A stretch of DNA of 64,000 nucleotides, taken from positions 62,001 to 126,000 of the forward strand of contig QOOS01000003.1 of the NCBI GenBank assembly GCA_003331425.1, given 5' to 3'. The position numbers were made by a program, and so were the translations under genes. Positions 378 to 49,012 of this stretch are shown one piece after another (the first letter of the stretch is position 1; each line of letters starts with the position of its first letter). Below the pieces are notes generated by a model. The model did not search any database. It was given only the letters and a program-made list of their open reading frames with translations, and had not been told where the DNA came from. The DNA is from Candidatus Nitrosopumilus sp. (GTDB lineage Archaea; Thermoproteota; Nitrososphaeria; Nitrososphaerales; Nitrosopumilaceae).

Positions 378-1391
378 TTAGAGATTATCAGTTATTTGTT
401 TTGTAAATTCAGTAGTCGTCTTATCACCACCAATATCTTTTGTTTTAATTCCAGTTTTCACTAAATCAAAAATAGTAGATTCTAGTTTTTTTGCCATTTC
501 AAAACACTTTTGATCATTATGTTTTGCACCAAGCCAATCAAGCATCATTTTAATCGAAAGTAAAAATGATGAAGGGTTTGCAATATTTTGTCCAGCAATA
601 TCAAATGCCGCACCATGAACAGGTTCAAACAATGCAAAATCATCACCAAGATTTGCAGCAGGCGCCATACCTAAACCACCAACTACTTGAGAAGATTCAT
701 CAGACAAGATATCACCAAAGAGGTTAGTAGTTACTACAACATCAAATTTTTCAGGTTGACGAATTAAATTCATTGCACATGCATCAACATACATTTCTTC
801 AAATTTAATTTCCGGATAATCTTTTGAAACTTCAATGCATGCTTTTGCAAATAATCCATCAGTTACACGCATAACATTTGATTTATGAACACAAGTTACT
901 TTTTTCATAGAATTACGTTGTTTTGCAGTTTCAAAGGCATATTTTGCAATTCTTTTTGATGCAGCTTCAGAAATAATTCTCAAAGCAACTGCAGAATCAC
1001 CTAAACTAAATTCTTTGCCAGTGTAAAGATCTTCAGTATTTTCTCGAACTATAACCATATCAATATCATCACGTAATGCAGGCATGTGAGGGTATGATTT
1101 GGAAGGTCGAATATTTGCATAAAGATCAAGCATTCTTCTTAAAACAACAATTACATCAGCAGCACTTTCACCTACTGGAGCCTTAAGACACACATCAGAA
1201 TTTTTGATATTTTCAACTACATCTTCAGGAAGTGCTTTTCCTGTTTGTTCAAGGGCTTTATCCCCAGCAATTAATTTAGAAATTTCAAATTCAATTCCAT
1301 ATTTTTCTTGAATTGTGTTTAACACAGAAATTGCAGAATCAGATAGTTCAGGACCTATGCCGTCACCAGTAATTAATGAAATCTTATACAT
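378..1391 (-). CDS. leuB: 3-isopropylmalate dehydrogenase (isocitrate/isopropylmalate dehydrogenase family)
   Basis: A 337-residue beta-decarboxylating dehydrogenase, the normal length for the archaeal enzymes. It oxidises and decarboxylates 3-isopropylmalate with NAD in leucine synthesis. Visible motifs are the N-terminal GDGIGPE (residues 9-15), the substrate-binding RRMLDLYANIRP (85-96), RENTEDLYTG (116-125), the catalytic Lys/Asp region with SDESSQV, and the NAD-binding EPVHGAAFDIAGQNIANP near residue 270. The same family includes isocitrate and homoisocitrate dehydrogenases, which motifs alone do not exclude; the gene is last in an ilvB-ilvN-leuA-leuB run, 22 bases after leuA, which strongly favours the leucine role. 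leuC and leuD are not in the window. Confidence 0.85.
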   Translation of the reverse strand: MYKISLITGDGIGPELSDSAISVLNTIQEKYGIEFEISKLIAGDKALEQTGKALPEDVVENIKNSDVCLKAPVGESAADVIVVLRRMLDLYANIRPSKSYPHMPALRDDIDMVIVRENTEDLYTGKEFSLGDSAVALRIISEAASKRIAKYAFETAKQRNSMKKVTCVHKSNVMRVTDGLFAKACIEVSKDYPEIKFEEMYVDACAMNLIRQPEKFDVVVTTNLFGDILSDESSQVVGGLGMAPAANLGDDFALFEPVHGAAFDIAGQNIANPSSFLLSIKMMLDWLGAKHNDQKCFEMAKKLESTIFDLVKTGIKTKDIGGDKTTTEFTKQITDNL

Positions 1392-1413
1392 ACTATCACA
1401 TCAATAATCAAAT

Positions 1414-2928
1414 TCAGTTTAACTGTTTTTCCTTAAGCATATTTTTAAGCATGATTCTATTGATTCCATCAATTACAGCTTTTACACTTGTAGTAACAAT
1501 ATCTTCTCCAACAGATTTTGCTGAAACAGAATTTCCTTGAGGGTCCTCAACAGTAATTGTTACTTCACATAATGCCGTAGCACCACCAGATATAGATGCC
1601 AATCTATAGTCAGTAATTTTTAATTCTGAAACCTTACCAGTGATTTTTTGAATGGCATTTAATGCAGCATCAACTGGACCTACACCATAATCAGTTCCAA
1701 TAAAATCTTCACCATCAATATTTAATTTTACAAATGCATATGGCATGATTCCAATACCTGTTGAAACTGAAAATGCAGATAGTTGAACAATTTTCTTTAT
1801 TCCTTTTTCACCTAAAACATCACTTGCAATAGATAATAATTCAACATCAGTAATTTGTTGCCCTTGATCACCAAGCACTTTAATTTTTTCAAGAATTTGT
1901 TTGGATTGATCATCAGTAGTTTTTACGCCAAATTCTTCAAGCATAGCATTCATTCCATGAATTCCAGCATGTTTACCTATTCGAAGTTGTCTTGTTCTAC
2001 CAACTAATTCAGGACTAATTGGTTCGTAAGTAAGAGGATTATTCAAGACACCATGAGTATGAATACCAGATTCATGCCCAAATGCATTATCACCAACTAT
2101 GGCCTTGTTTGGTTGGACTTTGATTCCAACAACTTTTGAGATATATCTAGAAGTATCATAAATTAATTCTGATTTGATATTTGTTTCATATTTTTGATCT
2201 TGTGGAAGACATTGTAATGCCATAGAAAGTTCTTCTAAAGATGCATTTCCAGCACGTTCTCCAATCCCATTAATTGTCACATGTGCACATGCAGCACCAA
2301 CATGAATTCCAGATAATGCATTTGCAACAGCCAATCCAAAATCATTATGACAATGAACACTTACAGGAAGTTGTGTTGCAGCAATTGCATCTTTTGTAAT
2401 TTCTGCAATATATTCAGGAGTGGAATACCCTACAGTATCAGGAATATCAATTCTATCGGCTCCAGCTTTTGCAACATCACCAAAAACTTGTTTCAAAAAA
2501 TCCCTATCGGTTCTAGTTGCATCTTCAGCTGAAAATTCGACTTGTAATCCACGAGATTTTCCGTATTCAACTGCTTCAATTGCTTTTTCAAGTGCTTGTT
2601 CTCTTGTCATTTGAAGTTTGTATTGTAAGTGAATATCAGAAGTTGCAATGAATGTATGAATATAATTTAATCCAGAATCAACTGCAGCGTCAATATCTCC
2701 CTTTATGGTTCTAGTCAATCCTGCAATTTCACAAGATAAACCTTCACTAGTAATCATCTTTACTGCTTTAGATTCACCTTCAGAGATTACTGGAAATCCA
2801 GCTTCTATTGCATCGACTCCAAGTTCATCTAATTTTTTTGCAATAGATAATTTTTGATCTGGGGATAAAGAAACACCAACAGTTTGTTCTCCATCTCTTA
2901 ATGTTGTATCAAAAATTCTTACTTTCAA
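1414..2928 (-). CDS. leuA: 2-isopropylmalate synthase (LeuA/homocitrate/citramalate synthase family)
   Basis: A 504-residue acyltransferase that condenses acetyl-CoA with 2-oxoisovalerate, the first committed step of leucine synthesis. The N-terminal TIM barrel starts with the family signature TTLRDGEQT (about residues 8-16) and carries the metal-binding HCHNDFGLAVAN near residue 192 and HESGIHTHG near 285. The C-terminal third is the regulatory LeuA dimer domain, so feedback inhibition by leucine is likely. The ATG overlaps the stop of ilvN by four bases, so the two are translationally coupled. Citramalate or homocitrate synthase activity cannot be excluded by reading alone, but neighbours (ilvB, ilvN, leuB) support LeuA. 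Confidence 0.88.
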   Translation of the reverse strand: MKVRIFDTTLRDGEQTVGVSLSPDQKLSIAKKLDELGVDAIEAGFPVISEGESKAVKMITSEGLSCEIAGLTRTIKGDIDAAVDSGLNYIHTFIATSDIHLQYKLQMTREQALEKAIEAVEYGKSRGLQVEFSAEDATRTDRDFLKQVFGDVAKAGADRIDIPDTVGYSTPEYIAEITKDAIAATQLPVSVHCHNDFGLAVANALSGIHVGAACAHVTINGIGERAGNASLEELSMALQCLPQDQKYETNIKSELIYDTSRYISKVVGIKVQPNKAIVGDNAFGHESGIHTHGVLNNPLTYEPISPELVGRTRQLRIGKHAGIHGMNAMLEEFGVKTTDDQSKQILEKIKVLGDQGQQITDVELLSIASDVLGEKGIKKIVQLSAFSVSTGIGIMPYAFVKLNIDGEDFIGTDYGVGPVDAALNAIQKITGKVSELKITDYRLASISGGATALCEVTITVEDPQGNSVSAKSVGEDIVTTSVKAVIDGINRIMLKNMLKEKQLN

Positions 2929-48706: not shown

Positions 48707-48836
48707 TCTATCAATTAAAGTGTCAAATTCTTTTAAAGTTATAAAAAATATTTTGATATTTCATACAAAAAGGTTGGGTAATTACAAAATATCAACAAAG
48801 TAAAGATAGAAAACTAAGTATTCTGAGAAATAAATT

Positions 48837-48930
48837 GGACTGGTCGTCTAGTTTGGTTTGGATGACGCACTCACACTGCGTAAGGAAGAAATTCCCGCAA
48901 AGGTCGTGGGTTCAAATCCCGCCCGGTCCA
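48837..48930 (+). tRNA. tRNA-Val (anticodon CAC) with a 19-nt intron at position 44/45
   Basis: Acceptor GGACTGG (48837-48843) pairs with CCGGTCC (48923-48929) with one G-T pair; discriminator A at 48930. D arm GTCT...GGAT, anticodon stem ACGCA/TGCGT with loop CTCACAC (anticodon CAC, valine), T arm GTGGG-TTCAAAT-CCCGC. Between TGCGT and the T stem there are 24 nt instead of 5. Folding gives a bulge-helix-bulge: central helix TGCG/CGCA, three-base bulges TAA and AAG, inner hairpin GGAA-GAAA-TTCC. Splicing in the bulges removes 48883-48901 and leaves a normal variable loop AGGTC and a 75-nt tRNA. No 3' CCA is encoded. Confidence 0.9.
48883..48901 (+). other. tRNA intron (bulge-helix-bulge), 19 nt, non-canonical position
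   Basis: The intron AGGAAGAAATTCCCGCAAA begins after residue 44 of the mature tRNA-Val and ends before residue 45, rather than at the canonical 37/38 site. It folds into its own GGAA/TTCC hairpin with a GAAA tetraloop, and exon nucleotides TGCG pair with intron CGCA. A splicing endonuclease tolerating non-canonical positions would be needed. Confidence 0.8.
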
Positions 48931-49012
48931 TTAATTAAAATAATTTTAATTAATGAATTTCTAAAAAAATAAATTCAAAATAACTATATGAGATGATTTA
49001 GTATCAAAGAAA

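Follow-up and report, generated by a model that had tools for sequence, protein, structure and literature searches.

The window, that is, the whole stretch of 64,000 nucleotides that was analyzed, carries a tRNA-Val(CAC) gene on its forward strand at positions 48837–48930, with a 19-nt insert at 48883–48901. The gene reads, in order, GGACTGG-TC-D arm-G-ACGCA-CTCACAC-TGCGT-AAGGAAGAAATTCCCGCAAAGGTC-GTGGG-TTCAAAT-CCCGC-CCGGTCC-A. ARAGORN reports a tRNA-Val with the anticodon CAC at 48836–48931, and the Rfam tRNA model matches 48837–48930 at a score of 46.8 bits, its cut-off being 29; the intron is left unmarked by both programs, and the Rfam model alignment treats roughly 20 nt within the variable region as an insertion. 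Contrary to a preliminary description of this DNA, which had considered the gene easy to miss by tRNA finders, it is detected by both of these tools. Based on these gene calls and on the cloverleaf of the spliced form, exon 1 (48837–48882, forward strand, 46 nt) comprises the acceptor 5' strand, the D arm, the anticodon arm, and A44, whereas exon 2 (48902–48930, forward strand, 29 nt) comprises the GGTC of the variable loop, the T arm, the acceptor 3' strand, and the discriminator A73. The anticodon CAC, as called by ARAGORN, lies at 48872–48874 on the same strand and is the only CAC anticodon among the 43 tRNA matches of the genome. Sequence, coordinates, and parts all agree with the preliminary description: removal of 48883–48901 leaves a regular 75-nt tRNA with the variable loop AGGTC. 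The minimum free energy structure of the 75-nt spliced form is a cloverleaf.

In the unspliced RNA, the predicted fold replaces the anticodon stem with a helix TGCG/CGCA, a 3-nt bulge, and a GGAA-GAAA-TTCC hairpin, all features lying on the forward strand. The exon strand of the central helix, TGCG (48877–48880; tRNA positions 39–42), is placed by sequence, fold, and covariation at base 39, and its bases join the anticodon stem once the RNA is spliced; it is followed by the first bulge, TAA (48881–48883), in which register comparison places the expected 5' splice site after 48882. The intron itself, AGGAAGAAATTCCCGCAAA (48883–48901), is assigned to position 44/45 from the Rfam insertion, from relatives interrupted at the same site, and from intron-free orthologues. 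It consists largely of the hairpin h' (48884–48895) and of the strand CGCA (48896–48899), which mimics the anticodon stem's 5' strand and changes jointly with its exon partner in relatives, from TGCG/CGCA to AGCG/CGCT. The second bulge, AAG (48900–48902), has its expected 3' splice site after 48901. Two 3-nt bulges, TAA and AAG, therefore flank a 4-bp exon/intron helix, and the bulge-helix-bulge (BHB) of the preliminary description, with the same helix, bulges, and hairpin, is recovered in both fold and covariation. The form it takes is the relaxed HBh' rather than the full hBHBh', because the exon-exon helix beyond the bulges amounts to 2 bp only (A37-C38 with G46-U47); this outer helix is invariant and hence beyond the reach of covariation.

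The insert is a feature of the whole family. A search of 250 Nitrosopumilaceae genomes found the Val(CAC) gene widely, and of the 96 loci inspected, 93 could be parsed, every one of them (93/93) with an enlarged variable region, mostly of 22–30 nt. The intron occupies the same site in 93 distinct sequence versions, at a length of 16–25 nt apart from one of 48 nt (L139, from genome G021 of genus g9), in which the intron ends and the central helix are retained. The site is common to 20 of the 22 sampled genera of Nitrosopumilaceae; consequently, the position that was at first called unusual is indeed non-canonical but is not rare, and the intron that was called very short is, at 19 nt, short in absolute terms but of the usual length for Val(CAC) introns within the family. 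Relatives with the same intron carry the public labels Nitrosopumilus, Nitrosarchaeum, Nitrosotenuis, Nitrosotalea, and Cenarchaeum, for which reason a Nitrosopumilus-like ammonia-oxidizing archaeon is the most likely host.

Among the 93 distinct versions, the exons are nearly invariant, and the changes within the insert preserve the BHB. Pairs 1–3 of h' are formed in 100% of these versions, with GC/AT exchanges, and pair 4 is formed in 95% of them against 47% with shuffled partners; since versions are sequences and not independent events, these counts overstate the number of changes, though several pair types occur at each level. With its hairpin pairing conserved to this degree, the insert is not a product of chance. 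Moreover, base 39 covaries both with its anticodon-stem partner, base 31, and with the opposing intron base: the triplet 31-39-intron is A-T-A in 80 of the 93 distinct versions, T-A-T in 9 (T-A-T or C-G-T being found in genera g2, g6, g20, and others), and C-G-T in 3, while one version, with exon A39 opposite an intron C, is without the first pair of the central helix. A single exon base would accordingly keep a partner in the mature anticodon stem as well as in the precursor helix, so that it must suit two partners, one before and one after splicing.

The exact register of the intron is of concern in this genome, because an A flanks both sites and a cut after the first or the second base of each bulge yields the same tRNA. 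An intron at 43/44, with the cut after the first base, would therefore give the same TGCGT-AGGTC junction here; across relatives, however, cutting after the second base gives the variable loop AGGTC in 94/94 versions, whereas cutting after the first base gives it in 72/94 and produces GGGTC or TGGTC in the other 22. In this comparison, the last intron base is A, G, or T and G45 is constant, with the proviso that the search pattern itself required GGTC on the 3' side of the intron and left the other bases free. Cleavage after the second base of the bulge is also the established rule for the archaeal splicing endonuclease EndA, and the 43/44 placement is thereby rendered very improbable. On comparison across relatives, the registers after the first and the third bulge base are both rejected. 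Position 44/45, between A44 and G45, is the best assignment that the aligned genes suggest, since only the second-base register gives a constant AGGTC in relatives, and it makes the intron a non-canonical one, away from 37/38.

Intron-free Val(CAC) genes exist in the genera g14, g15, and g18, two of which nevertheless contain a single member with the intron (G189 in g15 and G233 in g18). In the intron-free genome G182, the stretches TGCGTAGGTC and CTCACACTGCGTAGGTC both show exactly the junction that is predicted for the spliced gene. Outside the family, G265 (family f17) and G251 (family f3) are likewise intron-free. Such precise absence in some genera makes this intron a good case for the study of intron loss and gain. 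Two observations from other families are recorded here in their own right. The Val(CAC) gene of G292 (locus L143; family f2, another family of the order) is also interrupted at 44/45, by a 13-nt insert in which CAGC and GCTG pair to enclose a 9-nt loop and the intron hairpin is missing; this is possibly a bulge-helix-loop intron. The gene of G340 (locus L293; family f8) carries an intron of the Nitrosopumilaceae type within a tRNA body almost identical to that of G182, and it may have arisen by transfer or by assembly contamination.

These orthologues also bear on whether the region is spliced at all. The 24 nt between the anticodon stem and the T arm might instead be a long variable arm of class II type, kept in a mature and unspliced tRNA, as the acceptance of the 94-nt form as a single tRNA by Rfam and ARAGORN and the folding of the region into a hairpin would allow. 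Valine tRNAs, however, belong to class I, the conserved CGCA/CGCT pairs and covaries with the 3' strand of the anticodon stem, and some orthologues have a plain variable loop of 5 nt; a retained arm is rejected on the last two points and is assigned an extremely small probability. The joint switching of the triplet 31-39-intron would not be seen in a retained arm, nor in a random insert. Alternatively, the gene might be in decay, a pseudogene with a small insertion, and its Rfam score of 46.8 bits does lie below that of most tRNAs of the genome. Against this stand the near invariance of the exons together with a BHB maintained across 93 distinct versions, the cloverleaf fold of the spliced exons, and the position of the gene as the only Val(CAC) gene found. 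The 43 tRNA matches of the genome (an assembly of 1.24 Mb, 96.6% complete) include a single gene each for Val(UAC), Val(GAC), and Val(CAC). Another intact tRNA-Val(CAC), which the preliminary description had named as a finding that would turn this gene into a pseudogene, was sought in this 96.6% complete assembly by pattern matching that tolerated up to 3 mismatches and by relaxed tRNA thresholds, and none was found; a copy hidden in an assembly gap keeps a slight probability. A pseudogene is rejected on covariation, uniqueness, and the intron-free orthologues, and its probability is practically negligible.

The genome also encodes the enzymes that splicing of such an intron would require. Two EndA genes (PF01974) are present, one for a catalytic and one for a non-catalytic subunit. 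The first EndA (178 aa) matches the catalytic subunits 2cv8 (1.9e-40) and 3p1z (6.3e-38) from S. tokodaii and A. pernix and retains the catalytic Tyr, His, and Lys, its GYYGKPIGMPKPK being aligned with GYYGQPLDVEKPR of A. pernix; within its KPIGMPKPK stretch, a lysine falls on Lys44 of A. pernix, in the crenarchaea-specific loop. The second EndA (220 aa) is without the catalytic histidine when aligned with the M. jannaschii enzyme. An RtcB ligase gene is present as well. It has been reported that relaxed BHB introns are substrates of (alpha beta)2 EndA enzymes carrying the loop lysine, and that this lysine is needed for their cleavage (PMC6379350), and Thaumarchaeota are reported to possess alpha2-beta2 enzymes (PMC4090602). 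The crenarchaeal (alpha beta)2 EndA of A. pernix and S. tokodaii is the closest counterpart of the catalytic subunit, with the catalytic triad and the loop lysine alike, although the predicted subunits of the host are thaumarchaeal in sequence. The earlier expectation that an intron away from 37/38 would be accompanied by an endonuclease of broad specificity agrees with the genes for both subunit types and with the loop lysine in this genome.

The reading that best explains the locus, and which is held to be very probable, is that the sole tRNA-Val(CAC) gene of this genome contains a short BHB intron at 44/45, whose transcript would be cut by a two-subunit EndA and joined by RtcB. The central proposal of the preliminary description, a tRNA-Val(CAC) with a 19-nt intron at 44/45, is in this way upheld by conservation, compensatory changes, a consistent register, intron-free orthologues, and the lack of a second Val(CAC) in the searches made. 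Before splicing, the intron's 3' half (CGCA) would replace the 5' strand of the anticodon stem, pairing with exon bases 39–42; this exon-intron pairing would form the relaxed BHB (HBh') and present two 3-nt bulges, each of which would be cleaved by the two-subunit EndA after its second base. RtcB would then join the exons, bases 39–43 would be freed to enter the anticodon stem, and the mature tRNA-Val would read GUG codons. The locus offers a clean and testable example of a very short, oddly placed tRNA intron held across a whole archaeal family. A bolder and rather unlikely scenario would regard the intron at 44/45 as an old resident of Nitrosopumilaceae that is under structural selection in the 20 genera and is retained perhaps on account of some use of splicing, for instance in gating the formation of the anticodon stem; the 13-nt insert in the neighboring family would then point to an insertion hotspot that is even older or was hit repeatedly.

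It is well established that archaeal tRNA introns can lie away from 37/38, and non-canonical thaumarchaeal introns have already been catalogued, the Val(CAC) intron at 44/45 being of the same kind. For instance, tRNAscan-SE 2.0 includes a dedicated model, for which non-canonical introns of thaumarchaeal genes served as training set, and 107 such introns were found in Thaumarchaeota (PMC8450103). The present intron resembles that set in host group, BHB, position outside 37/38, and presumed EndA processing, and it shows no difference in kind. Similarly, tRNA-Thr(GGU) of Caldiarchaeum subterraneum has an intron at 45/46 and, in one version of the gene, a second intron at 24/25 (PMC3293823). The 45/46 intron lies in the variable loop, as in Val(CAC), but it is located one position further on, in another isoacceptor and in another lineage; position 45/46 is also described in a review. 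None of the article texts searched names position 44/45 for Val(CAC).

Two further tRNA genes of the same genome are interrupted non-canonically. In tRNA-Arg(CCU) (L045, 78–171; G000:C1:141048–141141, forward strand), a 19-nt intron built in the same way, A-GTCA-AATT-TGAC-GCGC-AA, lies in the D loop near 15/16, and an exact pattern recovers versions of 18–19 nt from 34 of 95 genomes in the genus; the Rfam match of this gene is limited to positions 5–66, and ARAGORN makes no call on the Rfam-matched stretch. The tRNA-Leu(UAA) gene (L003, about 1288–1409, minus strand; G000:C6, about 2644–2765, minus strand) apparently has two introns, one located in the D arm and about 21 nt long (CAAA-GTA-AGCAC-TAT-GTGCT-TTTG), another of about 15 nt at 37/38. 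Apparently because of these two introns, it is missed at normal thresholds, being absent from the accepted matches and represented by a fragment of 14.5 bits only at a relaxed threshold. For annotation, the point is that sibling tRNA genes with similar introns in one genome fall under the normal detection thresholds; without tRNA-Leu(UAA), the assembly would seem short of a tRNA for UUA codons.
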